Assembly (NCBI RefSeq): GCF_947090775.1
Contig: NZ_OX352321.1
Span: 806,001 to 870,000, forward strand
DNA length: 64,000 nucleotides
DNA from: Pseudarthrobacter sp. MM222
Lineage (GTDB): Bacteria; Actinomycetota; Actinomycetes; Actinomycetales; Micrococcaceae
Reading direction: 5' to 3'
Part shown: positions 37,919 to 54,238 of the stretch, one piece after another
How positions within the stretch are numbered: position 1 is the first letter of the stretch
Layout of the letters: every line of letters begins with the position of its first letter
Program-made: the position numbers and the translations under genes
Notes under the pieces: generated by a model
Databases searched by the model: none
What the model was told of the DNA's origin: nothing
The model's input: the letters and a program-made list of their open reading frames with translations, nothing else

Positions 37919-38989
37919 ATGCTGTTTTCCCCGATGACCCTCGGTGAGCTGGAACTGCCCAACCGTCTTGTGATGGCGCCGCTTACCCGCGTCCGCTCCG
38001 GCCAAGAAGGAGTCCCCGGCCCGCTGGTCGTCGAGCACTACCGGCAGCGGGCGTCGCTCGGCTTGATTGTAAGTGAGGGAACCTACCCCAGCCGGGCAGG
38101 CCGAGGCTTCCCTGGCCAGCCCGGGCTCGTGACCGACGAACAGCTGGAGGGCTGGGCCAACGTGACCGCCGCGGTCCACGCTGAGGGTGGTCGCATTTTC
38201 GCCCAGGTCATGCATGCTGGCCGTGTCACCCATGAGGACACTACGGGGGGCTACGAGGTAGTCGCACCCAGTGCCATTGCCATCGACGGTGAGACCCGCA
38301 CGTACAAGGGCAAGAAACCGTTCCCTGTTCCCCGCGCCCTGACGACCGAGGAACTGCCGGCCATCCTTCAGGAATTCGTGACGGCATCACGCAAGGCAGT
38401 AGAGGCAGGGTTCGACGGCGTCGAGCTGCACTCCGCGAACGGCTACCTGCTGCACGAGTTCCTCACTCCAGCCGCCAACCAGCGCGACGACGTCTATGGC
38501 GGCTCGCCTGAGAACCGCGCACGCTTCGTGATCGAAGTAGCCCAGGCCGTGGTGGACGCCATCGGGGCGGACCGCGTTGGCATCCGCATCTCGCCCGAGC
38601 ACAACGTTCAGGGCGCAACTGAACTTGATGCAGCAGACGTCCGGGCCACCTATGCCCACCTCGTAGACGCTCTGGCCCCGCTGGAACTGGCCTACCTCAG
38701 CATTCTGCACAAGGAACCCACCAGCGAGCTGGTCCAGGATCTGCGCGCACGGTTCAAGGGTACGTTCCTGATCAACACCGGCTTCGGCGTTGTCACCACC
38801 GGTGAGGAGGCCAAAGCCTTGGTCGCGGACGGCCACGCTGACGCCGTCGTTGTCGGACGCCCCGCCATCGCCAACCCGGACCTGGTCCGCCGCTGGCGTG
38901 AAGGCCTGCCGGTCAACGAGGCAGATCCGACCACGTTCTACACTGACGGTGCCGAAGGCTACACGGACTACCCGGCCTACCAGAACTAG
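37919..38989 (+). CDS. Alkene reductase, Old Yellow Enzyme family
   Basis: This 356-aa FMN-dependent TIM-barrel reductase reduces activated C=C bonds or nitro esters with NAD(P)H. Family features are LPNRLVMAPLTRVRS at the FMN site, FAQVMHAGR, the catalytic region GFDGVELHSANGYLLHEF, and the phosphate-binding ADAVVVGRPAIANPD. GAAAGGAA precedes the ATG. The length is typical of NemA/YqjM-like enzymes. It stands alone, followed by a repeat-rich intergenic region. Confidence 0.9.
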   Translation: MLFSPMTLGELELPNRLVMAPLTRVRSGQEGVPGPLVVEHYRQRASLGLIVSEGTYPSRAGRGFPGQPGLVTDEQLEGWANVTAAVHAEGGRIFAQVMHAGRVTHEDTTGGYEVVAPSAIAIDGETRTYKGKKPFPVPRALTTEELPAILQEFVTASRKAVEAGFDGVELHSANGYLLHEFLTPAANQRDDVYGGSPENRARFVIEVAQAVVDAIGADRVGIRISPEHNVQGATELDAADVRATYAHLVDALAPLELAYLSILHKEPTSELVQDLRARFKGTFLINTGFGVVTTGEEAKALVADGHADAVVVGRPAIANPDLVRRWREGLPVNEADPTTFYTDGAEGYTDYPAYQN

Positions 38990-39013: not shown

Positions 39014-39263
39014 GGGACATGCCCCGTCGCAGCCACGAAGAGTGGGCAGAATGCCATTCTGCCCACTCTCCGCTCTTAAGAATGAGCATGTCGCTCGGTC
39101 GGGGGACCGGCGAAGGGACATGTTCCCCGTTGGGACCCGGGAATGGGCATGTCCTTCGGCCGGGGGGTGGCGGGGCCCGGGGATGAGCATGTCCCTTGGC
39201 GGGGCCCGGGCAAGGGGCATGTCCCTCGGACGCAGGGCGCGTGCCCGGCGAATGGGCATGTCC
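39014..39263. repeat. Array of GGGCATGTCC-type motifs with one hairpin element
   Basis: Seven copies of RGCATGTC or its complement start at 39014, 39084, 39115, 39145, 39185, 39215 and 39254. The steps (70, 31, 30, 40, 30, 39) are near multiples of 10 bp. The first 80 bp form an element with inverted ends GGGACATGC and GCATGTC and a perfect 29-bp internal palindrome (39040-39068). The same element is tandemly repeated at 50228-50613. The array ends at the promoter of the GntR gene. No gene is seen in 38990-39282. Confidence 0.8.
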
Positions 39264-39265
39264 TC

Positions 39266-39276
39266 TCCTATAGGAT
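39266..39276 (+). promoter_or_regulatory. Operator TCCTATAGGA overlapping the gntR leaderless -10 box
   Basis: The 10-bp palindrome (39266-39275) overlaps TAGGAT (39271-39276), which lies 6 nt before ATG 39283. This is the first of three such sites in the tetritol locus and suggests autorepression. Confidence 0.65.
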
Positions 39277-39282
39277 CTGAAC

Positions 39283-39993
39283 ATGCAATCAGCTTCCTCC
39301 GGGAGTCGCCCTGAGGGCCACCACACGGGCCGACCCGTCAGCCGCCAGGTCCTCGCCGACCACGTCTATGAGGAGCTTCTTGCCTCGCTCATCGACGGGC
39401 GGCTCGAACCCGGGGCCGCGGTGAGCATTGACGGAACCGCCAGGGAGCTCGATGTTTCCCCGACGCCGGTCCGCGAGGCCCTTGCCCGGCTCGAACACAC
39501 CGGAATGGTTCGCCGCGTCGCGCTCAAGGGCTATCGGGTTGCGCCGATGTTCACCCAGGAGGACTTCGCCGAGCTCATGGAAGCGCGGCTTGCAATCGAG
39601 CCCGTCAACGCCCGCTTGGCGTGCGCCAGGCTGACACCCGCGCACCATGCCGAGCTGTCCGCGGCTGTGGCCGACCTCAAGAAGGCTCCGCGGGGCCCGT
39701 CGTTTGCCGAATTCCGCGACTATCTGGAGGCCGATGAACGGTTCCACCGGCTGATCGCGGAGCAGACCGGCAACCAGTTCATGGTTGCCGCCTATGCCGC
39801 CCTCGGCGGGCAGGTCCAGCGCTTCCGCCTCTTTGGGGGCGTGGGCATCACGGACGCGGAACAGGCGATCGCCGAGCACCAGGCGGTCCTGGACGCGCTT
39901 TCCTCCGGCGATCCGGAGAAGGCCGCAGCTGCCATGGCAGAGCATGTGCAGAAGGTGCGCGGCCGCGCCATTGCCGACGCGCCGGCAGACTAG
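39283..39993 (+). CDS. GntR-family regulator with FCD domain (tetritol locus)
   Basis: This 236-aa regulator has a winged helix (about residues 22-90; HVYEELLASLIDGRLEPG, then ELDVSPTPVREALARLEHTGMV) and an FCD domain (about 98-225; DYLEADERFHRLIAEQTGN with metal-type residues). It is transcribed from a leaderless promoter containing TCCTATAGGA. The same palindrome precedes the transporter gene at 40135 and the isomerase gene at 42656, so it is probably the local repressor of the tetritol genes. The inducer is unknown, likely a tetritol or tetrulose phosphate. Confidence 0.87.
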   Translation: MQSASSGSRPEGHHTGRPVSRQVLADHVYEELLASLIDGRLEPGAAVSIDGTARELDVSPTPVREALARLEHTGMVRRVALKGYRVAPMFTQEDFAELMEARLAIEPVNARLACARLTPAHHAELSAAVADLKKAPRGPSFAEFRDYLEADERFHRLIAEQTGNQFMVAAYAALGGQVQRFRLFGGVGITDAEQAIAEHQAVLDALSSGDPEKAAAAMAEHVQKVRGRAIADAPAD

Positions 39994-40049
39994 TTCTCCT
40001 TCAGCAGGCCAGCGCAGCAAACGTAAAGCGCGTCTTTTTTGTGACCCCC

Positions 40050-40079
40050 TTCACAACTGGATCAAAGACCCTATAGGAT
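40050..40079 (+). promoter_or_regulatory. Promoter with CCTATAGG operator before the first MFS gene
   Basis: TTCACA (40050-40055) and TAGGAT (40074-40079) are 18 nt apart. CCTATAGG (40070-40077) overlaps the -10 box exactly as in the gntR promoter. Transcription should start near 40086. Confidence 0.65.
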
Positions 40080-40134
40080 CTTCGATTGTGACGGCTACGA
40101 TGCCGACACCGGGTGAGTCACAAGGGAGTGAACA

Positions 40135-41463
40135 GTGCAAACAGAAACTTTGGCCACAGGCCCTAAGGAATCAGCAACACGCCGCACCATCAAAAATCTG
40201 CGATGGTGGATCCTAGGCTGGGCGCTGGCCGCAGGCATCATCAACTACATGGACCGCAGCGCGATCTCCATCGCCGCTCCGCAGCTCATCAAAGAATTCG
40301 GCATGACCCGGACGGACATTGGCCTCCTGGGCACCGTGTTCTCCTGGACCTACGCTTTTGCCCAGCTGCCGGCCGGCTGGCTCGTGGACAAGCTCGGCGC
40401 CCGCCGGATGTATTTCCTCGCCATCGCGGGCTGGAGCATCGCTACCGCGCTGATGGCCATCGGCGGCAAGATGTGGCAGTTCATCACCTTCCGTTTCCTG
40501 CTCGGCGTCACCGAAGCCCCGAACGGACCGGCATCGGCAAAACTCACCGCCGACTGGTTCCCCCGCACCGAGCGCGGACAGGCCACCGCCATCTGGGACA
40601 GCGGCTCCAAGTGGGGACCCGCTATTGCCCCGCCCGTTCTGACCGCCATCATGCTCACCTTCGGCTGGCAGGCCATCTTCCTCTTCCTCGGCGTCGCGGG
40701 CCTTGTGCTGGCACTGGCCTTCTTCATCTACTACCGCGCTCCTGAAGAGCACAAGCGCATCAGCGCGCAGGAACTGGACTACATCGAAAGCCAGCGCGCC
40801 ACGCAGGTCCTGAGTGCCAAGAAGGTCTCCTGGTTGGGTCTCTTCAAGCACCGCCAGATCTGGGGAATGATGGCAGGCTTCTTCTGCGTCATCTGGATCT
40901 GGAACATCTTCATCGTCTTCCTCCCGCTGTACCTGCAGGAAGAGCGCGGCGTCAGCATCGCAAACTCCGGCTGGCTGGCTGCTGTCCCGTACTTGGGTGC
41001 GGCTATCCTGGGCATCACCGGCGGCTGGGTCATGACACGCTACGCCAAGAAGGCGGGCCGCGATCCGCTGCTGGCCAAGCGCCACGTGATGTCCGTCGCC
41101 GCCGTGATCGCCGGCATCCTGATCTGCCTGATCCCGTTTGTAGATTCCCTCCCGCTCGCCCTCGCCGTGATGACCGTGGCGCTGGGCTTCGTCGCCACCA
41201 TGCAGGCAGCCGCCTGGGCCATGCCCGGCGATATCGTGGACAACTCCCAGGTGGCATCCGTCGGTGCCATCCAGAACTTCGGCGGCTACTTCGGCGGTGC
41301 CTTCGCACCGCTGCTGACCGGCGTGATCGCCGATGCAACCGGGTCCTACGCGCCGTCGTTCGTCATCGGCGGCGTCATCGCGGCCCTGGCCGCCGTGGCC
41401 TACACCGTGCTGGTCCGCGAGCCCATCCGGGACAAGACCGCAGCAACGCAGACAGAAAGCTGA
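40135..41463 (+). CDS. MFS transporter (ACS type) of the tetritol locus
   Basis: The 442-aa protein has 12 predicted segments and ACS-family features: INYMDRSAISIAAPQLIKEFG, LGTVFSWTYAFAQLPAGWL and RFLLGVTEAPNGP. It most resembles hexuronate/glucarate-type symporters and would import a sugar acid or polyol-derived acid. GTG 40135 follows AAGGGAG by about 6 nt. The upstream promoter carries the local operator. The next gene, a 2-hydroxyacid dehydrogenase, starts 8 nt downstream, which favours an acid as substrate. Confidence 0.85.
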   Translation: MQTETLATGPKESATRRTIKNLRWWILGWALAAGIINYMDRSAISIAAPQLIKEFGMTRTDIGLLGTVFSWTYAFAQLPAGWLVDKLGARRMYFLAIAGWSIATALMAIGGKMWQFITFRFLLGVTEAPNGPASAKLTADWFPRTERGQATAIWDSGSKWGPAIAPPVLTAIMLTFGWQAIFLFLGVAGLVLALAFFIYYRAPEEHKRISAQELDYIESQRATQVLSAKKVSWLGLFKHRQIWGMMAGFFCVIWIWNIFIVFLPLYLQEERGVSIANSGWLAAVPYLGAAILGITGGWVMTRYAKKAGRDPLLAKRHVMSVAAVIAGILICLIPFVDSLPLALAVMTVALGFVATMQAAAWAMPGDIVDNSQVASVGAIQNFGGYFGGAFAPLLTGVIADATGSYAPSFVIGGVIAALAAVAYTVLVREPIRDKTAATQTES

Positions 41464-41471
41464 ACCGACGC

Positions 41472-42578
41472 ATGAGCACAGCAACAAATGAATTGACGAC
41501 GGCGGCCGCCAGCGAGGCGGCCGCCAGCGAGGCGGCCGCCCCGGCGGCGGGCGCCACCCACCCGCCCTTCACCGTGGCGGTCACGGCCGACGCTGCCCGA
41601 CCTGACGGCAGCTCCGTCCACGGAGACCTCGGACTGCAACGACTCAGCGACAAAGGCATCAGCTGGGGCGTCCTGCCCAGCTACACGGATCCGGTTCCGT
41701 TGGCCGATCTTGCCGGCGTCCACGCTGTTCTGTCGCTGGGGCACATCGCCTTCGATTCGCGCACTGTGGACCACGCCCCGGACCTGAGGCTGATCGCCCG
41801 GTTCGGTGCAGGCTACGAAACCATTGACTTGGACGCCTGCACCCGCGCCGGCGTCGTCGTTACGAACACCCCGGACGCCATTCGCCGCCCGCTGGCTGTG
41901 GCCGGGCTGACCCTTTTGTTGGCTCTCTCGCACAAGCTCCTGGCCAAGGACCGGCTGACGCGGACCTCCGACTGGGCGCAGCGCGAGCACTACCGGGGCG
42001 CGCCGCTGGTTGGACAGACGGTCGGCATCGTGGGCTTCGGCAGCGTGGGCGCCGAGCTCGCCCGCCTGCTGGCCCCGCTCGGAATGAAGGTGGTGGGCAA
42101 CAACCGCAGCGGCCGCCATGCGGAGGCTGCGGAGCTCGGCGTCGAGCTGCTGGGCCTGAACGAGCTCCTGGAGCGCTCGGACTACGTGGTGCTCTGCGCC
42201 GCGCTCACACCGGCGACCAAAAAGCTGATCAACGCCGAGGCCTTGGCCCGGATGAGGCCAAGTGCCTATCTGATCAACATCGGCCGGGGAAAGCTCGTGG
42301 ACACGGATGCCCTCCGGGATGCCCTGCGGGACGGCCGGATCGCCGGCGCCGGGCTGGATGTCTTCGAGCCGGAACCCCTGCTTCCGGACGACGAGCTCCT
42401 GACCTTCGACAACGTGGTGCTTTCCCCGCATTCGCTGTGCTGGACCGAAGATTTCACCCGGGACGTGGCGGCCGGCGCCATCTCGTCGATCCTGGCGGTG
42501 GCAGGAGGGGAGCGCCCCGCCAACGTCCTGAATCCGGAGGTCTTCGCCACCGCGGCCTTCGCTGCGAAGCAGCCCTAG
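41472..42578 (+). CDS. D-isomer-specific 2-hydroxyacid dehydrogenase
   Basis: This 368-aa NAD(P)-dependent enzyme has the GFGSVGAEL nucleotide motif. The catalytic triad of the family is present: Arg in NIGRGKLVD, Glu in DVFEPEP and His in SPHS. It has an unusual 30-residue Ala/Thr-rich leader encoded partly by GAGGCGGCCGCCAGC-type repeats. It interconverts a 2-oxo and a 2-hydroxy acid; in this locus a tetronate or hydroxypyruvate-like acid is plausible. It is co-transcribed with the MFS gene. Confidence 0.83.
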   Translation: MSTATNELTTAAASEAAASEAAAPAAGATHPPFTVAVTADAARPDGSSVHGDLGLQRLSDKGISWGVLPSYTDPVPLADLAGVHAVLSLGHIAFDSRTVDHAPDLRLIARFGAGYETIDLDACTRAGVVVTNTPDAIRRPLAVAGLTLLLALSHKLLAKDRLTRTSDWAQREHYRGAPLVGQTVGIVGFGSVGAELARLLAPLGMKVVGNNRSGRHAEAAELGVELLGLNELLERSDYVVLCAALTPATKKLINAEALARMRPSAYLINIGRGKLVDTDALRDALRDGRIAGAGLDVFEPEPLLPDDELLTFDNVVLSPHSLCWTEDFTRDVAAGAISSILAVAGGERPANVLNPEVFATAAFAAKQP

Positions 42579-42592
42579 CCCAGAATGTGACA

Positions 42593-42628
42593 TTGACAAC
42601 ATTGAGTCGAATGGTAGATCCTATAGGA
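42593..42628 (+). promoter_or_regulatory. Promoter and TCCTATAGGA operator before the TIM-barrel gene
   Basis: TTGACA (42593-42598) is followed after 16 nt by TAGATC (42615-42620). The perfect palindrome TCCTATAGGA covers 42619-42628, at the predicted start site. It is the third copy of the locus operator and indicates a second transcription unit. Confidence 0.65.
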
Positions 42629-42655
42629 AACAGGATCTCACGAAGGAGTGACCCC

Positions 42656-43660
42656 ATGGCTTACACAGCCGAAAACTGGCCCATCACCGCGGCTCTGCTG
42701 CAGTTCCCGGGAACCGACGCCCAGGGCAACCACATCAACGACGCCGAGGCCTCCGCCTGGGCCGAGGTCCTCACCGAGGTCAAGGAAGCAGGCTTTTCCG
42801 ACGCCGACCTCACGGACAGCTGGGTCCGCCCCGGCGACCTGAGCGCCGCCCGGCTCGCCGAGTTCAAGCAGACCGCCGACAACGTGGGCATCGGCATTCC
42901 CGTCATCTCCGCGATCCGGCGCAGCGTCATCGAGGAAGGGAACTGGGAAGCCAACCTGGCCTACAGCCACCGCACCATCGACGCCGCGGCCGAACTGGGC
43001 TGCGAGGTGGTCTCGGTCGGACTGCACCAGGCCATCACCGCCGAGCAGCAGAAGCAGCTGTGGTTCTGGACGGTCGAGGGCTACAAGGACCCGGTGGGGG
43101 ACAAGGAAACCTGGGGCAAGGCCGTCACACGCCTGCGCGAACTCGGCCAGCACGCGGCGGAGGTCGGCGTGCTGCTCTCGCTCGAAATGTACGAGGACAC
43201 CTACCTCGGCACCGCGGACCAGTCCGTCCAGCTGGTCCAGGACATCGGCCTGGCCAACGTCGGCCTCAACCCGGACATCGGCAACCTGGTCCGGCTGCAC
43301 CGACCGATCGAGGACTGGCGCGAAATGGTCGCCAAGACCCTCCCGTACTCCAACTACTGGCACATGAAGAACTACATCCGCGACGAGGACGTGGCTCGCG
43401 ACACCTACGTGGCCATGCCGGCCCCGATGGAAAGCGGTCTGATCAACTACCGCGAGGCATTCAAGGTCGCCCTGTCCGTGGGCTTCCAGGGCATCCTCTG
43501 CACTGAGCACTACGGCGGCGACGGCCTGTCCGTCACCGCCAGCAACCAGGACTACCTCCGCCGCCAGGTCCTGCCGAAGACCGACGGCTACGCCCTCGGC
43601 CAGAGCAAAGTTGCGCAGGGCCGGCAGCAGCCCGCAACCACGGCACTCGCCAGCATCTGA
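42656..43660 (+). CDS. Sugar phosphate isomerase/epimerase-type TIM barrel (EryC-like candidate)
   Basis: The 334-aa protein belongs to the xylose-isomerase-like TIM barrels. Metal-site residues are spread over VVSVGLHQ, LSLEMYEDTY, VGLNPDIGNLV, YWHMKNY and LCTEHYGGDG. The ATG has GAAGGAG 7 nt upstream; the frame is open into the previous gene but this start is clear. In erythritol pathways a TIM-barrel enzyme racemises tetrulose phosphates, so an EryC-like role is reasonable but not proven by sequence. Confidence 0.78.
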   Translation: MAYTAENWPITAALLQFPGTDAQGNHINDAEASAWAEVLTEVKEAGFSDADLTDSWVRPGDLSAARLAEFKQTADNVGIGIPVISAIRRSVIEEGNWEANLAYSHRTIDAAAELGCEVVSVGLHQAITAEQQKQLWFWTVEGYKDPVGDKETWGKAVTRLRELGQHAAEVGVLLSLEMYEDTYLGTADQSVQLVQDIGLANVGLNPDIGNLVRLHRPIEDWREMVAKTLPYSNYWHMKNYIRDEDVARDTYVAMPAPMESGLINYREAFKVALSVGFQGILCTEHYGGDGLSVTASNQDYLRRQVLPKTDGYALGQSKVAQGRQQPATTALASI

Positions 43661-43670
43661 TTCGGCGATG

Positions 43671-43706
43671 GGTGCGGCCGTCAAGCTATTTGGGGGCGGC
43701 CGCACC
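43671..43706 (+). terminator. Hairpin between the TIM-barrel and kinase genes
   Basis: A 10-bp perfect stem (43671-43680 with 43697-43706) with a 16-nt loop follows the stop by 10 nt. It may be a partial terminator or mRNA-stabilising element, as the genes downstream have no obvious separate promoter. Confidence 0.5.
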
Positions 43707-43772
43707 ACCCCAGCTCCAACTCAGTTCTCTGCCCACAGCATTAGTTCTCCAACACGGATTCAATGAGGAACC

Positions 43773-45509
43773 ATGACCCAGATCTTCGACAATCCCGCTG
43801 ATTTCGCGGATGAGGCTTTGGACGGCTTCGTGGCGGCCAACCGGGGCTATGTGGCCCGGGTGGACGGCGGCGTGGTCCGCTCCACCGAGGTCCCGGCCGG
43901 GCAGGTGGCCCTGGTGGTCGGCGGCGGCTCCGGGCATTACCCGGCCTTCGCCGGCCTGGTCGGGCCGGGCCTTGCCGCGGGCTCGGCGTGCGGGAACATG
44001 TTCGCCTCGCCGGCGGCCGGGCAGGTCTACCGGGTGGCGAAGGCCGCCAACGCCGGCGGCGGGGTGCTGCTGAGCTACGGGAACTACGCCGGGGACGTGC
44101 TGCACTTCGGCCAGGCCCAGCTGCGGCTGAACGCCGAGGGCATCGAGACCCGCACGGTGCTGGTCACCGACGACATCGCCTCCGCCCCGCTGGAGCAGAT
44201 CGGGAAGCGCCGCGGGATCGCCGGGGACCTGACGGTCTTCAAGATCGCCGGCGCCGCCGCCGAGGCCGGGCTCAGCCTGGACGACGTCGAACGGCTCGCC
44301 GTCAAAACCAATTACCGCACCCGCTCCCTGGGCGTGGCGTTCGGCGGCTGCACCCTGCCGGGCGCGGACGCCCCGCTGTTCACCGTCCCGGCCGGGCAGA
44401 TGTCCCTGGGCCTGGGCATCCACGGCGAACCGGGCATCTCCGAACACCCGATGCCGACCGCCTCCGAACTCGCCGCCCTTCTGGTGTCCCGGCTGCTCGA
44501 GGACAAGCCGGAGGACGCCGGCACCCGCGTGGTGGCCATCGTGAACGGCCTGGGCACGGTCAAGTACGACGAGCTGTTCCTGCTCTTCGGCAAGATCGAA
44601 AAGCTCCTCGCCTCCGCCGGTCTGACCGTGGTGGAGCCCGAATGCGGGGAGCTGGTCACCAGCCTGGACATGTCCGGGCTTTCCCTGACCCTGCTCTGGC
44701 TCGATGCGGAACTCGAACAGTACTGGGCCGCCCCGGCTGACACCCCGGCGTTCCGCAAGGGCAACCTCGCCCCCCGGGCCCGCCGCGAACTCACCGGCCC
44801 CGACGAGGCCGCCGCCGAGGAGCTTGAACACACCACCGCAGCGGCGGCAGCCCTCGGCCGGCTGGCGGCCGACCTGCTCGGCCAGGTGCAGCACGTGATC
44901 ATCGAGCATGAGGAGGAACTCGGCAACCTGGACGCGATCGCCGGGGACGGGGACCACGGCATCGGGATGCGCCGCGGCGTGGACGCGGCCGTCGCCGCCG
45001 CCCGGCACGCGCTGGAACAGGAAGGCGGCGCGTCGCCGTCGCGGGTCCTGACCGCAGCCGGGGAAGCCTGGAGCGAACGCGCCGGCGGCACCTCCGGCGC
45101 GCTCTGGGGCTCGGCGGTCATCGCCGCCGGCCTCGCGCTGGGCAACCGGGACAGCTACTCCGGCGGGGACGCCGCCGCCGCCGTCACCGCGTTCGTCGAC
45201 GCGATCACCGAGCTCGGCAAGGCCGAGTTGGGCGACAAGACCATGGTGGATGCCCTCCTGCCGTTCCGGGACACCTTCCTCAACGCCTTCGACGCCGGAA
45301 CCTCAGTGGCTGACTCGCTCGCCGCAGCAGCGGAAGCCGCTACCGCCGCCGCCAGCCGGACGGCCGATCTCCGCCCGCTCAAGGGCCGCGCCCGTCCGCT
45401 CGCGGAAAAGAGCCTCGGCCACCCCGACCCCGGCGCAGTGTCCTTCGCACTCATCGCCACACGGATTTCTACCCACATCGAAACTTCCAGCACAGGAGCA
45501 AAAGCATGA
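43773..45509 (+). CDS. Dihydroxyacetone/erythrulose kinase, fused DhaK-DhaL
   Basis: This 578-aa ATP-dependent kinase combines DhaK (about residues 1-330) and DhaL (about 370-570). DhaK shows [12 protein letters not shown] and the substrate-binding His in [10 protein letters not shown] near residue 217. DhaL has [12 protein letters not shown] near residue 390 for Mg-ATP. The fusion marks the ATP type rather than the PTS type. With the RpiB- and TPI-like genes beside it, erythrulose is the most likely substrate, as in mycobacterial threitol/erythritol pathways. It overlaps the next gene by 4 nt. Confidence 0.88.
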
Positions 45510-45988
45510 GCACAACAACAGGCTGGCGCGTCGTCGTCGGCAACGATGAGGCAGGCGTCGAATACAAGAACGCCCTGAAGGCCCTGCTCGAAGCCGACCC
45601 CCGCGTCGCCTCCGTAGAGGACATCGGCGTCGGCGCCAACGACTCCACCGCCTACCCGCACGTGGCCGTCGACGCGGCCCGCAAGATCGCCGAGGGCGAC
45701 GCCGACCGGGCCCTGCTGATCTGCGGCACCGGGCTCGGCGTGGCCATCGCGGCCAACAAGGTCCCCGGCATCCGGGCCGTCACCGCGCACGACAGCTACT
45801 CGGTGGAACGCTCGGTCCTGAGCAACAACGCCCAGGTCCTCACCATGGGCCAGCGAGTCATCGGCCTGGAACTGGCCAAGAAGCTCGTCGGCGAATGGCT
45901 CAGCCACCGCTTCGACGAAAACTCCTCCTCCGCCGCCAAGGTGGACGCCATTTGCTCGTACGAGCCCGAATACACGAAGGCAGTCTGA
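45506..45988 (+). CDS. RpiB/LacAB-family sugar-phosphate isomerase (D-erythrulose-4-phosphate isomerase candidate)
   Basis: The 160-aa enzyme has the family catalytic Cys73 in [15 protein letters not shown], an [10 protein letters not shown] loop and [14 protein letters not shown]. RpiB relatives isomerise ribose-5-phosphate, but in tetritol loci (DerI/EryI) they convert erythrulose-4-phosphate to erythrose-4-phosphate. ATGA overlap with the kinase stop implies coupling and a shared pathway. The acidic-basic C-terminus is slightly longer than in E. coli RpiB. Confidence 0.87.
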
Positions 45989-45990
45989 AC

Positions 45991-46977
45991 ATGACCGAAT
46001 CAACAGATACCGCGGCCGCCATCAACGCCGCCCGTAAGATTGCCGTCGTCGGCTCCGGCTACATGGGCGGCGGCATCGCCCAGGTCCTGGCGCTCGGCGG
46101 GGCCCGGGTTGCCCTGGCGGACGTGTCCGCCGAAGTAGCGCAGAAGAACTACGAGCGTCTGCTCACGGAATCCGACCAGTTCGTCGCCGACGGGCTGTTC
46201 CCGGAAGGCTCCACGGCCATCCTGAAGGAAAACCTCTGGGCCGCCAAGAACATCGAGGAAGCCGTCGCGGACGCCGACTTCATCGAGGAAGCCGTCCCCG
46301 AGGTCATCGCCATCAAGCACGAGACACTGGCCCGGATCAGCGCCGCCGCCCGCCCCGACGCCATCATCGGCTCCAACACCTCCACCATCTCCATCGCCGA
46401 CCTGTCCGAGCCGGTGACCAACCCGGAACGGTTCCTCGGCGTGCACTTCTCCAACCCGTCCCCCTTCATCCCCGGCGTCGAGATCATCCCCCACGCCGGC
46501 ACCTCGGCGGCCACGGTCGGCGCCGTCCGCGACCTCGTGCACGCGGCCAACAAGCAGACCGCCGTCGTCAAGGACGTCACCGGATTCGTACTCAACCGGC
46601 TCCAGTACGCCCTCTTCCACGAGGCCGCCCAACTGGTGGAACAGGACATCGCGACTGCGGAGGACGTCGACACCCTGGTCCGCACCACCTTCGGCTTCCG
46701 GCTGCCGTTCTTCGGCCCGTTCGCGATCGCCGACATGGCGGGCCTGGACGTCTACAACTTCTGCTACAAGTCCCTGCAGACCGACTTCCCGGAACGCTTC
46801 GCCACCCCGAAAATCCTCAGCGACCTGGTCGAGGCCGGCAAGCTGGGCACCAAAACGGGAGCCGGCTTCCTCAACGTCCCCGCCGAACGCACCCCCGAGC
46901 TCATCGCCTACCGCAACAAGGCCTACGTGGCCATGCAGAAGCTCCTCAACGAGCTCGGCCCTGCCCCCATCAACTGA
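45991..46977 (+). CDS. 3-hydroxyacyl-CoA dehydrogenase-family NAD-dependent oxidoreductase
   Basis: The 328-aa protein has the 3HCDH Rossmann motif GSGYMGGGIA (residues 21-30), the VPEVIAIKHETLARIS region, GSNTSTISI, and the C-terminal helical domain beginning FVLNRLQYALFHEA. Besides beta-oxidation enzymes, this superfamily includes L-gulonate 3-dehydrogenase and carnitine dehydrogenase. In a polyol locus a hydroxy-acid substrate is more likely than a CoA ester. ATG 45991 is 2 nt after the rpiB-like stop. Confidence 0.82.
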   Translation: MTESTDTAAAINAARKIAVVGSGYMGGGIAQVLALGGARVALADVSAEVAQKNYERLLTESDQFVADGLFPEGSTAILKENLWAAKNIEEAVADADFIEEAVPEVIAIKHETLARISAAARPDAIIGSNTSTISIADLSEPVTNPERFLGVHFSNPSPFIPGVEIIPHAGTSAATVGAVRDLVHAANKQTAVVKDVTGFVLNRLQYALFHEAAQLVEQDIATAEDVDTLVRTTFGFRLPFFGPFAIADMAGLDVYNFCYKSLQTDFPERFATPKILSDLVEAGKLGTKTGAGFLNVPAERTPELIAYRNKAYVAMQKLLNELGPAPIN

Positions 46978-47017
46978 ACTGCATCGTTCACTTCCACCTT
47001 TCTTCAGGAGCGCACCC

Positions 47018-47785
47018 ATGAGTACATTCCCCGCAGAACGCACCGCGATTATCACCGGTGCCGTGTCCGAGCGAGGCATCGGCCGCGGCACCGCCAACTA
47101 CCTGGCGGCCGAGGGCTGGAACATCGGCATCATCGATCTCGATGACGCACGCTGCAAGGCTGCCGCCAAGGAAATCGCCGCCGAGCACGGCGTTCAGGCC
47201 TTCGGCGCCGGTGCCAACGTCTCCGACGAAGGCTCGGTCCGTGCAGCGATCGACGCCATCGAAGCGGAGCTGCCGCAGATCGTGGCCCTCGCCAACGTGG
47301 CCGGCGTCAGCTCACCGGTGCCCTACCTGGAGCTCGACGCAGCCGAATGGGACCGCGTGCTCAACATCAACCTCAACGGCGTCCACTACGCCACCCGCCG
47401 CGTCGCAGAATCCATGGTGAAGAACAGGATCGGGCGCATCGTGAATATCTCCTCGGTCTCCGCGCAGCGGGGCGGCGGCACATTCTCCAAGACGCCGTAC
47501 TCGGTGGCGAAGGCCGGCGTGATCGGCCTGACCCGCGCCACGGCCCGCGAACTGGGCGAGTACGACATCACCGTCAACGCCATCTCACCTGGCCCCATCG
47601 ACACCGACATCATGGGCGGCACCCTCAGCGAGGAACGCAAGGACGAACTCACCAAAGACCTCGTCGTCAACCGGGTCGGCTCGACCCGGGACATCGCAGC
47701 AGCCATCGCCTTCCTCATCAGCGAGGACGCCGGGTACATCTCCGGCCAGACGCTGAATGTGGATGGCGGACTCTACATGCACTAA
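47018..47785 (+). CDS. SDR-family dehydrogenase (tetritol dehydrogenase candidate)
   Basis: The 255-aa short-chain dehydrogenase has TGAVSERGIGRG at the cofactor site, the catalytic Ser in NISSVS and YSVAK with Tyr161 and Lys165. It closely resembles the SDR at 12161. It probably oxidises a tetritol such as erythritol or threitol to erythrulose. Its stop codon is part of TAAGGAGG, which serves as the ribosome site of the small protein gene that follows. Confidence 0.87.
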   Translation: MSTFPAERTAIITGAVSERGIGRGTANYLAAEGWNIGIIDLDDARCKAAAKEIAAEHGVQAFGAGANVSDEGSVRAAIDAIEAELPQIVALANVAGVSSPVPYLELDAAEWDRVLNINLNGVHYATRRVAESMVKNRIGRIVNISSVSAQRGGGTFSKTPYSVAKAGVIGLTRATARELGEYDITVNAISPGPIDTDIMGGTLSEERKDELTKDLVVNRVGSTRDIAAAIAFLISEDAGYISGQTLNVDGGLYMH

Positions 47786-47797
47786 GGAGGAAGCATC

Positions 47798-47926
47798 GTG
47801 GCACAACACAGCCAGACCCGCGCCGCCTCCCGATTCGCATCCTGGAGCAAGGGACGGAAGATCTACCTCGCCGTCGGCATCCTGGCCTGCCTGGCCGGGG
47901 TAATGATGATCGCTTTTTCGCGCTAG
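47798..47926 (+). CDS. 42-aa single-pass membrane protein next to an MFS gene
   Basis: A GTG at 47798 preceded by a near-perfect TAAGGAGG opens a 42-residue frame ending TAG at 47926. The N-terminal half is polar and basic (SRFASWSKGRK); the C-terminal half is one hydrophobic helix (YLAVGILACLAGVMMIAF). It lies between the SDR and the MFS transporter genes in the same direction, so it may be a small subunit of the transporter. It is below common annotation cut-offs. Confidence 0.65.
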   Translation: MAQHSQTRAASRFASWSKGRKIYLAVGILACLAGVMMIAFSR

Positions 47927-47992
47927 ACGTTTCCCCCGCAACTGAATCACTGCACCGAGTTACACCACTGATTGCTCGACGAGGAGTTTTTG

Positions 47993-49342
47993 ATGTCCGT
48001 AACAACAACGTCCACCCGGGACCTACTGGAGACGCCGGTCCTTAAATCGGCCATCTCCAAGGCCTCCCGCCGGCTGATGCCCATGCTGGTGATCCTTTAT
48101 GTGGTCGCCTTCCTGGACCGCACCAACGTGGGCTTCGCCGAGGCCGCCTTAGGCGTGGACAAGGGCATCACAGCCGGCGCCTACGCCCTGGGCGCCGGGA
48201 TCTTCTTCATCGGCTACGCCCTGTTCGAGATCCCGAGCAACCTGCTCCTGACCAAGTTCGGCGCGAAGGTGTGGCTGGCCCGCATTGCCATCACCTGGGG
48301 CATCGTCTCCGCCTGCTTCGCATTCGTCCAGGGTGAGACGTCATTCATCATCCTGCGGTTCCTGCTGGGTGTCACCGAGGCCGGGCTGTTCCCGGGCGTC
48401 ATCATGTTCCTGGCGGCGTGGTTCCCCAACAAGGTCCGCGTCAAGATGTTCGCCATCTTCTATCTGGCCCAGCCGTTTTCCCAGATGATGGGCGCCCCGT
48501 TGTCCGGCTGGCTGATCAACATCGGCGACCAGGTGCCCGGGGTCCAGGGCTGGCAGGTCATGTTCTTCGTCGAGGGCATGCTGGCGGTGGTCGCCGGTAT
48601 CGCCGCGTACTTCTTCCTGATCAACAGCCCGCAGGACGCCAAATTCCTGACCAAGGACGAGAAGAACGCGCTCCTTGAAGTCATGGCACTGGAAGACACT
48701 GTCAAGGAAGAGTCCGGCCCGCGCGGCGTCCTGGCCGCCATGAAGAACGGCAAGGTCTGGTACTTCACCGTCATCTACTTCTGCCTGCAGATCGCCGTCT
48801 ACGGTGTGACGTTCTACCTGCCGCAGCAGGTGGCGCAGCTGACCGGCCAGAAGGTGGGCATCGCCGTCGGCCTGATGGCAGCCATCCCGTGGTTCTTCGG
48901 CATCTTCGCCTGCTACTTCATCGGCAAGGCCGCCAACACCGTGGTCCGCCGCAGGGTCTGGGGCACCGGGCTGTTCATTTCCACCGGACTTTGCATCTTC
49001 GGCTCCGCGTGGGCCGGCGCGAATCACATTCCGGCGCTCGGCATCATGTTCATCACCCTCGCCGTGTGCAGCTTCCTCTCGATCGGCCCCATCGCCTGGT
49101 CCTACCCGACGGCGTTCCTCACCGGAACGGCCGCAGCCGCGGGAATTGGGCTGATCAACTCGCTCGGTAACCTTGGCGGCTTCGTGGCCCCGATCCTGCG
49201 GACCTCGGTCAACCAGATCACCGCCTCAGACACGGGAACCATGGGGGTCTATGCCCTGGGCGTGCTCCCGTTCCTGGCCGCGGCCATGATGTTCGCGACC
49301 CGCCGCTTCAAGAACAAGGCCGACGAGCTGCTGGAGCAGTAG
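47993..49342 (+). CDS. MFS transporter (ACS type), second carrier of the tetritol locus
   Basis: The 449-aa protein has about 12 segments and the ACS-family start VAFLDRTNVGFAEAAL, with GAGIFFIGYALFEIPSNLLL and RFLLGVTEAGLFPGVIMFL. It is the paralogue of the transporter at 10745, and each has an adjacent paralogous SDR gene. ATG 47993 has GAGGAG 6 nt upstream; the frame extends 7 codons further without a better start. It likely imports the pathway substrate; the identity of the polyol or acid is unknown. Confidence 0.85.
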   Translation: MSVTTTSTRDLLETPVLKSAISKASRRLMPMLVILYVVAFLDRTNVGFAEAALGVDKGITAGAYALGAGIFFIGYALFEIPSNLLLTKFGAKVWLARIAITWGIVSACFAFVQGETSFIILRFLLGVTEAGLFPGVIMFLAAWFPNKVRVKMFAIFYLAQPFSQMMGAPLSGWLINIGDQVPGVQGWQVMFFVEGMLAVVAGIAAYFFLINSPQDAKFLTKDEKNALLEVMALEDTVKEESGPRGVLAAMKNGKVWYFTVIYFCLQIAVYGVTFYLPQQVAQLTGQKVGIAVGLMAAIPWFFGIFACYFIGKAANTVVRRRVWGTGLFISTGLCIFGSAWAGANHIPALGIMFITLAVCSFLSIGPIAWSYPTAFLTGTAAAAGIGLINSLGNLGGFVAPILRTSVNQITASDTGTMGVYALGVLPFLAAAMMFATRRFKNKADELLEQ

Positions 49343-49388
49343 GGTCTTCCAGCGCCCATCAACTGGATCCAGCAGAAAGCACCAACAT

Positions 49389-50252
49389 ATGCAGCAGCGC
49401 CCCGGCAGCCAAACCGCCAGCACCCGCATCCTCGTGGGGGTTAGCACCAAGATGTACCTCGGCTACAGGGACAGCCTGGACTGGCTGGAGCGGCTGCGGC
49501 ATGAAGTGGATACCCGTCCGGCCCTCGCGGCCGGGCGGGTTGTCCCGTTTGTCATTCCGTCCTTCCCGGTCCTGCCCGCGGCGGCCCGCCTCCTCGCGGG
49601 TTCACCGGTGCTGCTCGGGGCGCAGAACTGCGGCTGGGCGGACGGACCCTGGACCGGGGAGGTGGCCCCGTCCATGCTCGCGGAACTTGGTGTCCGGATC
49701 GTGGAGATCGGCCATGCCGAACGCCGGCGGCATTTCAACGAAGACGAGGCCATGGTGTCCCTCAAGGTCCGGGCCGCGGACGACGCCGGGCTCACGCCGC
49801 TGCTGTGCGTGGGCGAGCCCGACTCCGGGCAGCCGGCGGGCGCTGCGGACTTTGTGTACCGTCAGATCGAATCGGCCGTCGACGGCGACTGGGAGCTCAC
49901 CGGCCGGCTCACCATCGCGTACGAACCGGTCTGGGCCATTGGAACGGCGGAGCCCGCCGCGGCCGCGTATGTGTCTGACGTCGTCCAACGGCTCCGGACG
50001 CAGCTCGCGCTGGCTGGCGTGCGGGAGTTGCCGGTGATCTATGGCGGCTCGGCCAAGCCCGGACTGCTGCCAACCCTCGACGGCGTCTCCGGTCTGTTCC
50101 TGGGCCGTTTTGCGCACGACCCCGCGAACTTCGGCGCCGTGCTGGATGAGGCATTCCGGCTGGACAATGCACTCTTGCTGGATGAGGGCTTCCCCGCGGC
50201 CGGCACCGCCACCGATACCGCCATGGATGGACATGCTCCGCCCTGGTCATGA
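49389..50252 (+). CDS. Triosephosphate isomerase-like tetrulose-phosphate isomerase (LerI/EryH candidate)
   Basis: The 287-aa TIM barrel keeps the TPI catalytic set: Lys21 in STKMYLG, His near 109 in EIGHAERR and Glu near 179 in AYEPVWAIGT. GHSERR of true TPI is GHAERR here, a substitution compatible with a different ligand. In erythritol and L-threitol pathways such proteins convert L-erythrulose-1-phosphate to D-erythrulose-4-phosphate. The last eight residues and the stop lie inside the first 112-bp tandem repeat. Confidence 0.83.
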   Translation: MQQRPGSQTASTRILVGVSTKMYLGYRDSLDWLERLRHEVDTRPALAAGRVVPFVIPSFPVLPAAARLLAGSPVLLGAQNCGWADGPWTGEVAPSMLAELGVRIVEIGHAERRRHFNEDEAMVSLKVRAADDAGLTPLLCVGEPDSGQPAGAADFVYRQIESAVDGDWELTGRLTIAYEPVWAIGTAEPAAAAYVSDVVQRLRTQLALAGVRELPVIYGGSAKPGLLPTLDGVSGLFLGRFAHDPANFGAVLDEAFRLDNALLLDEGFPAAGTATDTAMDGHAPPWS

Positions 50253-50613
50253 GCAATGGGCAGAACACCACTATGCCCACTGGAAGCATCTAAGAATGGG
50301 CATGTCCCCTCTGGAGATGGGCCGGTAATGGGCCGCTGGTGGACATGCTCCGCCCTGGTCGTGAGCAGTGGGCAGAACACCACTATGCCCACTGGAGGCA
50401 TCTAAGAATGGGCATGTCCCCCCTGGAGATGGGCCGGTAATGGGCCACCGATGGACATGCTCCGCCCTGGTCATGAGCAATGGGCAGAACACCACTATGC
50501 CCACTGGAGGCATCTAAGAATGGGCATGTCCCCCCTGGCAATGGGCCGGTAATGGGCCACCGATGGACACGCCCCACCCTGGTTATGAGCAGTGGGCATG
50601 TTCCCCCGGCTAA
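50228..50613. repeat. 112-bp tandem repeat, three full copies and a partial fourth
   Basis: Units begin at 50228, 50340, 50452 and 50564, an exact 112-bp period. Each contains inverted ends GGACATGC and GCATGTCC 69 bp apart (for example 50229 and 50298). Between them is a TGGGCA/TGCCCA hairpin, and CTAAGAATGG precedes the right end. The fourth unit is internally deleted. The same element occurs once at 39014-39093. No spacers separate the units. The array lies between convergent genes and overlaps the preceding stop codon. Confidence 0.92.
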
Positions 50614-50617
50614 GTCG

Positions 50618-53600
50618 TCAGGAAGACACCGAGCGCTGGCACAGGCCGATGAAGCCGCCCAGCTGTTCCATGCCCTCCGGGTGGGCGGGCAAGTAGTTGG
50701 TTAGTTCCGTGGCGCGGACCAGCACGGCCCGCCACTGCCCGCGCGAGACCGCCACGTTGATCCGGTTGCGCGAGAGCAGGAACTCCATGCCGCGCGGAGC
50801 CTCGGCCACGGCCGAACAGGCCATCGACACGATCACCACCGCCGCTTCCTGCCCCTGGAACTTGTCCACCGTCCCGACCCGCACCCCTGACAGGTCGGCA
50901 ACCTCGAGCGCGTCGCGGATAACGTTGACCTGAGCGTTGTAGGCCGCAACCACCATGACGTCGTCTGCACCCAGGGGCCGGGTGCCTGTTTCGGTGTGCC
51001 ACTGCAGCCCGAGATGTCGCCGCACCTGTCGGACCACCTCCAAAGCTTCCTCGGCCGAGGACGTGGTGTTGCCGCTGTGTTCGACGTACACGGTTTCGAT
51101 CCCGGCCGGAACACCGTCAAGCCGCCGGAGATCGGCGGCAGGTGCAGACCGGAGCTGCCCCTCGTAGGACAGTTCGGACACGGCCCGGCACAGCTCCGAG
51201 GTCATCCGCCACGAGTCGGCCAGGAAATACCCCAATGCCGGCGGCAGCGTGGCATGTCCTGCGGAGATCCAGCCCAGGGCGGACTCGTCCACGGGCTCGG
51301 GATGCGAGCCCTGGCTGACCTGCGGCAACTGCTGGGGATCGCCCAGCAACAGCAGCCGGCTGCTGGCCTGCGCCACCGCCAGAGTATTGGCGAGGGAGAA
51401 CTGCCCGGCCTCGTCGATCACCAGCAGGTCCAGCGATCCGGCAGGGACATTGGCTCCCGTCATGGTCCACGCGGTGCCGCCAACGAGCGCCCCGCCGGGG
51501 GAGCCGAGGAGCCGGGCAACGTCCTTGGCTGTGCGTTGCTCCCAAGGGAGGGGATCCGCGTGTTTCACGTCCTTGGCCACGATGGACGGATCAATTCCGG
51601 CGCCGGTCACGGCAGTCTTGAGCAGGTTTTCTACGACGGCATGGGACTGGCCCACCACCCCGACCTTCCAGCCGCGGGCCACCAGCCGGGCGATGACGTG
51701 GGAACCCACATAGGTCTTGCCGGTGCCGGGAGGTCCCTGCACCGCCAGGTACGAGTGATCCAGGTGCAGAACGGCCTCGGTAATGACATCGATGAAACGG
51801 TCCGGCCCCGCACCGGGCTGCGGCAAAGAGTGTCCGCTAATCAGCCGTGGCGGCAGACGCCGGACGAGATCCAGCGCAGGATGGCGGGGAATCGCCGAGG
51901 ATCTCAGGCCGGCCGCGACCTTCTCAGCCAGCGAAGCCAGTGATTCCTCGAGGCTCTTGGTCGCGAGCGGCTGGTCCTCTGTCAGTGCGATGGGGAGATC
52001 ATTGTGGGGCGACACCTTCCGGTGCAGCCGGTCCCGGATGATGACCGTGTCGCTACCGTCATCGTGTCCCAGCTCCAGGACTTCCGTCCCGAACCAACCG
52101 TTCCGTCCGCTTCCGTCTTTGCCGGTGCCCTCCAGCCCGGCAGGAAGAGGGCGGTCATACATCCGGAACCATTTGCTGCCTTCGCGCAGATCGGAGCCGG
52201 GACTCACGGTGCCAGTCAGTTTGACCCGGCGTTCGGGGAGTTTAGTGCCTTCCTGCTGCCAGTCGTCCAGTATCTCGGCGGACTCGACGAGAAAGACGTT
52301 TCGGTCCCGGACGTGGGTGTCCGGGCCCTGTTCGCACCGGTCGAAGTGCGCCCACCAGAAGGCCTTGCGCTCGCGGCGGTGATAGCTCACGGCCGCCGCC
52401 AGCATTGATAAAGCCTTTCGGTCGTCTTCCGGAAGCCCGGTCCCCGGCGCGGCGAACTCCTTCAGTGCGAGTTCGGCTGGGCTCAGGGCATCCTCCGTTT
52501 CCGGGTCTGCGTCGGCGGACCCACTCGGAGTGCCGGCGCTTGGGAAGGCGTCAGCCCGGCCGCTCCCGCCCTGACCGCCCAGCGTGATCCCGCGGTCCTG
52601 CGCCAGGCCCAGGAGCCAGTTCCGGAGCTGGAGTGTGGACAGGCAATCGTACTCGTTGTAGTCCGAGATCCCGGCGAGGATTGTGTCCGCCTCCGCAGAA
52701 CGATTGTTGTCGCGCGCTTCGCAGTAATGGGCGTAGGCAACCACGGACGCGCCGGCGTCTTTCACGTCTCCCGAGCGCAGGTGCGTGCCCATGTAGAGCG
52801 GCTCGAGCTTCTTAATGCTGTAGGAGTTCTCGGAGATCCGGATGCTGTTGCGGACCGTCTGGTACAGGTCCACCAGGAGCCCGTCGCGGAGCCACTGGTC
52901 CACGGTGTCCTCACCTGCCACGTGCATGACGGAGAGCTTGCGCAGGGCGGTCTTCTCGTAGGCGGCGTAGTGGTAGACGTGCATGTCCGGGTAGTCCTGC
53001 CGGCGCTTCTCCACGTAGGCGAGGAAATCCAGGAAGGCCTGCTTTTCCGCCTCCCGGCTATGGGCCCAGAAGGGCTTGAACACTCCCGGGGTGCCGGCGT
53101 CTACTGGTGCCTCGATGACGCCGAACAGATATTCCAGCCCCCAGACGCCCGTGGCGCTTTCCTGCCAGAGCGGGTCGCCCTCGAAATCGAAGAAGATGTC
53201 GCCCTTGCTGGGCGGCGGGAGCTCGGCCAGGGTGTTGTCCGGGATCACGGCGTAGCGGAGGGAATGCTCCTCGCCGTCCTTGACGTACCGGACGCCGCCG
53301 TCGGCTCCGCCGGTCCCGCTCTGCATCTTGGCCTGCTGCTGTAGGCGCAGGAGCGAGGGGGTGGGGCTGACCAAAGTGGCTTCCGCGAGCTCCGTGACCG
53401 TCCGAATGCCGTCGGCGTGCAATTTCTTGCGTTGCGCGGAGTTCATCCTCGCCACCAAGAGGAGATCGTCGGTGGCCTTGGCCATCTCCTGGCAGTAGTC
53501 GCAGCGGCCACAGGCGGAGACGCCCGCCGCACCCCACCTGACGGTGCCGGGCTGCGCGACGTGCCCGGAGGTCAGGGCGAGGAAGCGCTCCCGGCGTTCC

Positions 53601-54238
53601 CGGAACACCGGGAGGAGTTCGGAGAGTTTGTGGTGGCTCTGGACATATTCGAAACCGCCTCCCGGCAATGGAACGGTGGCGCCGAGGACCAGCGTTACGG
53701 CCGGGTCCGGCGTGATCCCGGCCTTCAGGAGCTGGTCTCCGTAGGCAGCAAGTTGGAGGAGCGCCGTCACCTTGGCATGGCGGGCCAGCTTGGTGTCGAA
53801 CACGGCATAGCTGCCGTCAGCCTGCCGGACCAGGAAATCGGAGCGCCCATGGAACTGGCCGTCAAAGAAAGCGGCCTGGAACACCACGTCCGCTCCCGAG
53901 CGCAGCGCTTCAATGGACTCGGAATGCTTGGCAAGCAACGTGGCGCGGTCCATGCTTTCGGCCGGCACGACGTCGTACACGCCCCGGCCTGTCCCGGGAT
54001 CCCACATCCCGAACTCGTCGACGAAGCCGTCCAGGACCCTGCGCTCGTGAACGTCGCCCAGCTTGGCGGCGTGCTCCAGCATCTCATCGACGCCGAAATC
54101 AGGCCTGGGAGAGCGGCCCAGCCGCTCGTCGAGCTTCCGGAGCAGCTGGTACTCGCAGCCGGCCGCGATCACCAGGTCGCTCGCGGAGAAGACCAGATCC
54201 GGTCCGGAGTCCGGCACTTCCGGTTCAAGAAAAAACAC
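50618..54238 (-). CDS. TM0106-type RecB-like nuclease fused to a superfamily I helicase
   Basis: This 1206-aa protein has an N-terminal RecB-like nuclease (FSASDLVIAAGCEYQL, then VFDTKLARHAKVTALLQLAAY) and a cysteine cluster (CGRCDYC) that may hold an iron-sulphur site. A predicted RNase H-like segment (IFFDFEGDP) follows. The C-terminal DNA2/UPF1-like helicase has VQGPPGTGKT, LLVIDEAGQFS, GDPQQLPQVS and DKFQGQEA. It probably resects or degrades DNA in repair or defence. The start is GTG at 54238 without a strong ribosome site. It is divergent from tex. Confidence 0.87.
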   Translation of the reverse strand: MFFLEPEVPDSGPDLVFSASDLVIAAGCEYQLLRKLDERLGRSPRPDFGVDEMLEHAAKLGDVHERRVLDGFVDEFGMWDPGTGRGVYDVVPAESMDRATLLAKHSESIEALRSGADVVFQAAFFDGQFHGRSDFLVRQADGSYAVFDTKLARHAKVTALLQLAAYGDQLLKAGITPDPAVTLVLGATVPLPGGGFEYVQSHHKLSELLPVFRERRERFLALTSGHVAQPGTVRWGAAGVSACGRCDYCQEMAKATDDLLLVARMNSAQRKKLHADGIRTVTELAEATLVSPTPSLLRLQQQAKMQSGTGGADGGVRYVKDGEEHSLRYAVIPDNTLAELPPPSKGDIFFDFEGDPLWQESATGVWGLEYLFGVIEAPVDAGTPGVFKPFWAHSREAEKQAFLDFLAYVEKRRQDYPDMHVYHYAAYEKTALRKLSVMHVAGEDTVDQWLRDGLLVDLYQTVRNSIRISENSYSIKKLEPLYMGTHLRSGDVKDAGASVVAYAHYCEARDNNRSAEADTILAGISDYNEYDCLSTLQLRNWLLGLAQDRGITLGGQGGSGRADAFPSAGTPSGSADADPETEDALSPAELALKEFAAPGTGLPEDDRKALSMLAAAVSYHRRERKAFWWAHFDRCEQGPDTHVRDRNVFLVESAEILDDWQQEGTKLPERRVKLTGTVSPGSDLREGSKWFRMYDRPLPAGLEGTGKDGSGRNGWFGTEVLELGHDDGSDTVIIRDRLHRKVSPHNDLPIALTEDQPLATKSLEESLASLAEKVAAGLRSSAIPRHPALDLVRRLPPRLISGHSLPQPGAGPDRFIDVITEAVLHLDHSYLAVQGPPGTGKTYVGSHVIARLVARGWKVGVVGQSHAVVENLLKTAVTGAGIDPSIVAKDVKHADPLPWEQRTAKDVARLLGSPGGALVGGTAWTMTGANVPAGSLDLLVIDEAGQFSLANTLAVAQASSRLLLLGDPQQLPQVSQGSHPEPVDESALGWISAGHATLPPALGYFLADSWRMTSELCRAVSELSYEGQLRSAPAADLRRLDGVPAGIETVYVEHSGNTTSSAEEALEVVRQVRRHLGLQWHTETGTRPLGADDVMVVAAYNAQVNVIRDALEVADLSGVRVGTVDKFQGQEAAVVIVSMACSAVAEAPRGMEFLLSRNRINVAVSRGQWRAVLVRATELTNYLPAHPEGMEQLGGFIGLCQRSVSS

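Follow-up and report, generated by a model that had tools for sequence, protein, structure and literature searches.

The stretch analysed here (the window) comprises 64,000 nucleotides of Pseudarthrobacter sp. MM222 (NZ_OX352321.1, positions 806,001 to 870,000) and contains a tetritol catabolic block whose two border gaps are occupied by copies of a palindromic repeat, element A (Table 1). Elsewhere in the same genome, element A arrays enclose a single gene for a protein with an AbiEi-like part and a Vsr/homing-type nuclease domain, and it is the association of such repeats with such genes that is considered below. Each full unit of element A consists of two outer palindromic decamers (consensus RGRCATGYYC), 69 bp apart from start to start, and between them a central split palindrome of 23 bp (TGRRCA..TGYYCA), while extra outer sites are arrayed at a spacing of 29-33 bp. 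An earlier note on this DNA had described an element of about 80 bp upstream of gntR with inverted ends and an inner TGGGCA..TGCCCA palindrome, and the 79-bp unit found there, with its outer ends GGACATGC/GCATGTCC, confirms this. The three to four copies reported after the TPI-like gene correspond to three full units and a partial one. The single copy reported before gntR is correct for the full unit but overlooks five further outer-type sites, in an array that stops 19 bp short of the gntR start. The 5′ and 3′ border copies share 72% identity (repeat family D3 in the window). The motif GGRCATGYYC occurs 28 times in the window, compared with 2.5 expected from shuffles, and with matches accepted up to E 1e-3, four full units are detected there along with one weak match (39116-39194).

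The earlier note saw the element nowhere else, which is true of the window but not of the genome. The decamer was counted 274+264 times in the 4.29-Mb genome, compared with 42+44 in a reversed control, and a composite pattern of two outer sites about 60 bp apart gave 54+38 matches against 0+0. A sequence-only model built from 49 units (R1) located about 52 units, of which 3 are partial, distributed over 29 places, with 150 of 3763 first-look candidates scored. Twenty-six of these places were fetched, and contain 185 sites in 12.2 kb, compared with 9.6 in shuffles; the commonest of 159 site distances are 69 (42 cases), 32 (33) and 29 (22). According to a simple gene caller, all 26 are intergenic, lying between convergent (11), tandem (11) or divergent (4) genes. 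The corresponding numbers for the gaps of the window (n=43) are 6, 32 and 5, so that convergent gaps are in excess (Fisher P 0.011). Element A is a dispersed, intergenic palindromic repeat family that is genome-wide and clade-specific. The earlier comparison with a miniature inverted-repeat transposable element (MITE), a repetitive extragenic palindrome (REP) or a bacterial interspersed mosaic element (BIME) was right as to the kind of repeat. The 29 places are clumped, with 10 spacings below 15 kb where 2.7 are expected (P 5e-5), and they leave a single 1.0-Mb gap (P 0.016). Two long stretches of the genome, 1.4-2.06 and 2.14-3.15 Mb, have no listed element A place. Local copying is unsupported, as neighbouring and distant places have similarities of 0.68 and 0.65, respectively (permutation P 0.07). 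A Pfam comparison of 30 genes that adjoin, or are enclosed by, 20 of the 26 places, judged by eye and without a statistic, showed no shared theme except for the sandwiched nuclease gene.

The earlier note proposed that the repeats mark the borders of a horizontally transferred tetritol module. It suggested a genome-wide search, a comparison of the borders in strains lacking the element and a search for a transposase with matching ends, and held that scattered intergenic copies would speak against the idea. In favour of a transferred module, element A lies in both gaps of 12 genomes, MM222 included, and since its places are clumped, gene groups are enclosed by pairs of them more often than expected by chance. 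Among the best 80 of 183 relatives found with one block protein, the block loci are all recorded as Arthrobacter, Pseudarthrobacter, Paenarthrobacter or Micrococcaceae, except for L093. Element A was found in both gaps at 11 of the 80 loci as well as in the window, and in the 3′ gap alone at two (L032 and L035), which yielded no OYE-family gene and whose 5′ gap is not judgeable. It was not found in the remaining 67 loci, some of which are shortened by contig ends. Of these element-free loci, 23 are flanked by the OYE-family gene and, at the opposite end, by the RecB-like gene, and with the same neighbours in place the block is ancestral there. The gap between the TPI-like and RecB-like genes measures -152 to 105 bp (median -4) in 24 element-free loci and 72 to 2087 bp in 13 element-bearing loci; as the genes are close or overlapping in the former, the repeat entered an existing gap. 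Together with the copies found genome-wide, largely the scattered intergenic outcome that the note had named, this synteny leads us to reject the module-border reading, which is refuted for this place and retains practically no probability.

In a quick tree of the block (76 rows; five of the 80 loci were dropped for missing or short genes), the 14 element-bearing rows sit in one clade of 15 with a Shimodaira-Hasegawa-like approximate likelihood ratio test (SH-aLRT) support of 99. The fifteenth row, L064, comes from a strain in which it forms a second block that lacks the usual neighbours. The best identity between genomes is 82% for the 5′ copies (12 genomes) and 70% for the 3′ copies (14 genomes), compared with 65% between places of the MM222 genome. 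At the block, 3′ and 5′ copies are 74% identical within the same genome and 72% between different genomes. The 5′ copies are clearly inherited. Both gaps were filled with element A in one Arthrobacter clade, probably in its ancestor, and the copies then inherited. Two observations on block content may be added. The MFS transporter and 2-hydroxyacid dehydrogenase pair between gntR and the TIM-barrel gene is present at that position only in the window, L024, L025, L026 and L038 among 81 loci, and no element was found beside it. In L057 and L064 (strains ES3-54 and CC185), a second gene group with HCDH lies away from the usual neighbourhood and has no element match.

Table 1. Genes, element A copies and other features of the window.
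Feature	Coordinates	Strand	Remarks
OYE-family (Oxidored_FMN) gene	37919..38989	+	conserved left neighbour of the block
Element A, full 79-bp unit	39015..39093	.	5′ gap of the block, between OYE-family gene and gntR
Five extra outer-type sites in array	39116..39263	.	sites at 39116, 39145, 39185, 39215, 39254
gntR/FCD regulator gene	39283..39993	+	first gene of the block
MFS transporter and 2-hydroxyacid dehydrogenase genes	40135..42578		between gntR and TIM-barrel gene
TPI-like gene	49389..50252	+	last gene of the block
Element A, first full unit of 3′ array	50229..50307	.	overlaps last codons and stop of TPI-like gene
Element A, full unit 2 of 3′ array	50341..50419	.	112-bp tandem period
Element A, full unit 3 of 3′ array	50453..50531	.	
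Partial element A unit	50565..50603	.	two sites, 29 bp spacing
RecB-like nuclease/IGHMBP2-like helicase gene	50618..54238	-	conserved right neighbour, convergent with the block
Perfect 25-bp inverted repeat	117..171		5-nt loop
Short tandem array	9674..9751		13-bp period, TGCCGCCGGGCCG-like

Of the genes adjoining element A places, one stands alone between two arrays at genome positions 3150353 and 3151506. It was the only candidate found for a gene with matching ends; as for a transposase, the Y1 (RAYT/IS200-type) family PF01797 has 0 matches in this genome and matches in 5 of 14 control genomes, other transposase families not being searched. The protein (P0001, 269 aa) matches AbiEi_4 above the cut-off and REase_MTES_1575 below it, although most relatives carry the latter in a precomputed table. 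A structure model of a relative (P0014, 82% identical to P0001), compared with the matches listed by VIA-align, predicts an AbiEi-type winged helix-turn-helix with an antitoxin-type second domain, aligned over residues 1-164 with a middling Z, followed by a putative Vsr/DUF559-type nuclease fold with acidic residues of the active-site type. These acidic residues are invariant in 40 aligned members (of 70 translated). The genes nearby encode TypA/BipA, an SH3_Rv0428c protein and two open reading frames without a Pfam family; TypA/BipA is also the neighbour at locus L143, other loci having been judged by synteny. No AbiEii nucleotidyltransferase toxin gene was found in an operon at the MM222 locus or at L143.

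The association recurs in relatives. The 30 best homologous loci, each from a different genome, have 74-100% identity, and in all 30 element A is found on both sides of the gene. In 29 of them the distance is at most 0.3 kb, while in L120 one side has the element 0.9 kb away. The locus is syntenic, its upstream flanks being linked by tblastx in 30/30 and its downstream flanks in 26 of 28 with sequence, and the 30 loci are therefore not 30 independent insertions. Homologues at or above 67% identity occur in 37 of 150 congeneric genomes, and all 37 carry element A; of the other 113, nine carry the element and 104 are element-free, none of these with such a homologue. Homologues were counted among the matches listed, in which weak matches are incomplete. 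In these searches, R1 and the two further models described below (R2 and R3) scored at most 31-33 candidates per genome under stricter filters than elsewhere, so that "element-free" denotes no match in them; the match counts saturate, and one unit may count on both strands. The resulting association (P 6e-27) is overstated because the genomes were treated as independent.

A second pair of gene and repeat occupies the same locus in 17 other genomes. There the gene is only 46-53% identical, compared with 79-86% and 93-97% for its neighbours, which include TypA/BipA. Element A is absent from these 17 loci at E 0.01. Instead, a 69-bp palindrome (B) with TGCGCA outer sites and an inner TGCGCAGGGACWGTCCCTGCGCA lies on both sides of the gene in 16 of the 17, with about 935 bp between copies, and locus L150 has a weak downstream match alone. 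The model R2 was built from the B flanks, omitting six of 32 flank copies (both of L137 and L139, the downstream copy of L144 and the upstream copy of L148). It matches in 21/21 genomes with a B gene, including G006 and G351, whose genes are partial or split, in 2/37 genomes with an A gene, and nowhere in the MM222 genome. All 17 B copies distant from the gene that were chosen and fetched are intergenic, with a 25 bp overlap allowed.

Paralogues of about 34% identity carry a third repeat, the 75-bp element C (ACTGGCCCGGTTTT..AAAACTGGGCCAGT, TGGCCC type). By a fixed pattern it was found on both sides of the gene at 12 of 17 loci, on one side at three and on neither at two. Its model (R3) matches in 44 of the 150 genomes, most strongly at the gene and with some dispersed copies, of which the three fetched are intergenic. 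A paralogue in the MM222 genome itself (L151, G000:C1:4076330-4077127, 32-34% identity) has type-C-like repeats in its flanks. Six more paralogue loci have other repeats, for example TTTCTGCACC or CAGCTGTCCC inverted repeats. L152, L168, L169 and L170 represent another nuclease lineage, flanked by TTTCTGCACC / GGTGCAGAAA repeats, and the flanks of L173 (G307:C1:249486-252280), a 31% paralogue, have in common a 46-bp repeat (z 14) whose sequence is different again. In a model-free test, which compared the 300-bp flanks of each gene with shuffles, z exceeded 3 at 23/30 A, 9/17 B and 14/23 paralogue loci and at 0/48 genes of the window.

These further pairs bear on the possibility that the repeats are remnants or passengers of a different, MITE-like mobile element, and that the gene is linked to them merely by shared descent at one locus. 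The restriction of element A to one clade at the block, the identical position of the nuclease locus across the 30 A loci and the nine element-bearing genomes without the nuclease gene would all be consistent with such hitchhiking. However, another lineage has a different repeat on both sides of the same locus and paralogues elsewhere have others again, so that a chance link would have to recur, and no Y1-type transposase (the only transposase family searched) was found in the MM222 genome. Hitchhiking is regarded as improbable.

The symmetry of element A could in principle act in RNA, as a terminator or mRNA-stability element. Many of its places are at gene 3′ ends, and its arm columns are complementary, the paired share falling from 71% to 35-43% when partners are slid, yet this is expected of any conserved palindrome. 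No covariation beyond column composition was detected across the 49 units, in which pairing is 71.2% compared with 72.6% after shuffling of partners (486 of 500 shuffles at or above the observed value). The 18-pair arms are paired in just 51% of cells, the RNAalifold consensus fold has only -1.5 kcal/mol, and Rfam gave no match up to E 1 in 38000-52000. An RNA hairpin or known RNA family was accordingly rejected, and a role at the RNA level is very improbable. In the absence of arm covariation, the symmetry appears to be kept by conserved sites, as in protein-binding DNA; element A looks like a set of double-stranded protein sites, with which a cruciform or single-strand form remains compatible.

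Such sites raise the main rival explanation, in which the repeats serve as binding arrays for the AbiEi-nuclease, or for some different protein, in gene regulation or chromosome organisation, nothing is mobile, and the copies beside the nuclease gene are its own operators. A streptococcal AbiEi represses its own operon through two 23-bp inverted repeats, according to the available text (PMC3985639). The sites of element A are palindromic with quantised spacing (29-32 bp), their arms do not covary, and the copies remain in the same gaps through speciation. Operators are less readily reconciled with the position between convergent genes of 11 of 26 A places and of 12 out of 20 dispersed B/C copies that were examined, with copies on both sides of the nuclease gene rather than upstream alone, or with the nuclease residues that are invariant in the 40 aligned members. 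Overall, this explanation is considered unlikely, while ranking above the other alternatives.

The preferred reading is that element A and the AbiEi-like/Vsr-homing-type nuclease gene form a repeat-and-partner system, in which binding, cutting and copying would be functions of the protein, and we hold it with modest confidence. It draws on the anatomy, dispersal and intergenic placement of the repeat, its inheritance at the block, its linkage to the gene, the different repeat beside the diverged gene at the same locus and the invariant acidic residues. The AbiEi-type winged helix would recognise the outer and inner sites of the repeat of its own lineage, and the nuclease domain would nick or cut at the repeat. 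Repair or strand transfer might then, now and again, place a new copy into a tolerated gap, and tandem duplication could extend the arrays while the nuclease gene keeps its place. The tetritol block would be one place where existing gaps took up element A in the ancestor of one Arthrobacter clade. A wider proposal, in which AbiEi-Vsr nucleases form a second, RAYT-independent class that spreads fixed-length double-stranded palindromes across intergenic regions, with protein and repeat changing together in A, B, C and probably D, is put forward tentatively, at somewhat less than even confidence.

Several observations weigh against a repeat-and-partner system. The genomes are related, and element A and the gene appear to share descent, which could alone explain the 37/37 association. 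The 67% line was chosen after a gap in the list had been seen (67%, a 61% fragment in G399, then at most 56%). Six element-bearing genomes without a homologue of at least 67% have 14-31 matches (G304, G306, G333, G386, G389 and G399; G333 and G389 are incomplete), and another three have 2-4 (G017, G217 and G382). Similarly, 27 genomes have B matches without a B gene, one of them with nine. Flanking A copies are barely more alike within one genome than between genomes (57% and 54%). No newly gained copy has been demonstrated, nor a target-site duplication, which was not sought. The training sequences of the B and C models came from the flanks of the genes themselves, flank copies being defined on the training loci, and family C has a single match in the MM222 genome. 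Inheritance of the 3′ block copies rests on the tree rather than on identity, two of the 32 B flanks are weak (L139 upstream and L144 downstream, E about 0.02), and the model-free test misses 7/30 A, 8/17 B and 9/23 paralogue loci; these last three points lower confidence slightly.

REPtrons, as described in the available parts of the literature, comprise a mostly single-copy gene with repeats beside it, whose abundance is often correlated with the gene (PMC8266576). Like these REPIN-RAYT systems, the repeats studied here are intergenic palindromes dispersed as inverted pairs and tandem arrays, copies adjoin a gene that is not mobile, the repeat type varies with the gene type, and repeats also occur in genomes without the gene (PMC8266576; PMC8049555). 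The gene lies immediately beside the repeats at 30/30 loci, but belongs to another protein family, encoding a Vsr-type nuclease joined to an AbiEi DNA-binding part instead of an HUH tyrosine transposase. The units also differ in their fixed length (79, 69 and 75 bp) and double-stranded-type sites, covariation being absent in A, the only family tested. No GTAG-type tetranucleotide is present in the consensus of 49 element A units, for which bases just outside the units were not aligned. With neither a Y1/HUH enzyme nor the GTAG tag, the system is not classed as a REPtron; we infer a REPtron-like system with an unrelated nuclease. With respect to MITEs, inverted ends are present in element A. 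Unlike the AbiE type IV toxin-antitoxin system, the AbiEi part here is followed by a nuclease domain, repeats lie on both sides of the gene and genome-wide, and no AbiE-type toxin gene adjoins. Unlike the Vsr-like homing endonuclease I-Bth0305I, the gene stays put while short repeats are dispersed. The protein shares its Pfam domain, below the Pfam cut-off in members scanned, with the MTES_1575 Vsr-type nuclease domain, which was described from giant proteins that also contain helicase and HEPN domains, repeats not being mentioned in the available text (PMC3710099). In PMC12306157, the available text includes a table row for Arthrobacter livingstonensis with the figures 5,512 and 705. A literature search that covered few subscription journals revealed no paper linking these repeats to an AbiEi-nuclease protein, and the way in which such repeats are spread or used may be new.

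The spread and persistence of REP-like repeats is an open question that the literature encountered treats in connection with HUH transposases. If the present reading is true, there is a parallel system with an unrelated enzyme, in which recognition, copying and benefit to the host are directly testable; natural gene-repeat pairs at one syntenic locus, with element-free sister genomes, make such tests possible. Such a system also cautions against taking repeats of this type as signs of horizontal transfer. If the wider proposal is true, the annotation "type IV antitoxin" of such proteins would conceal a family of repeat-dispersing nucleases, and a function would be given to proteins that are now named for their AbiEi antitoxin domain.

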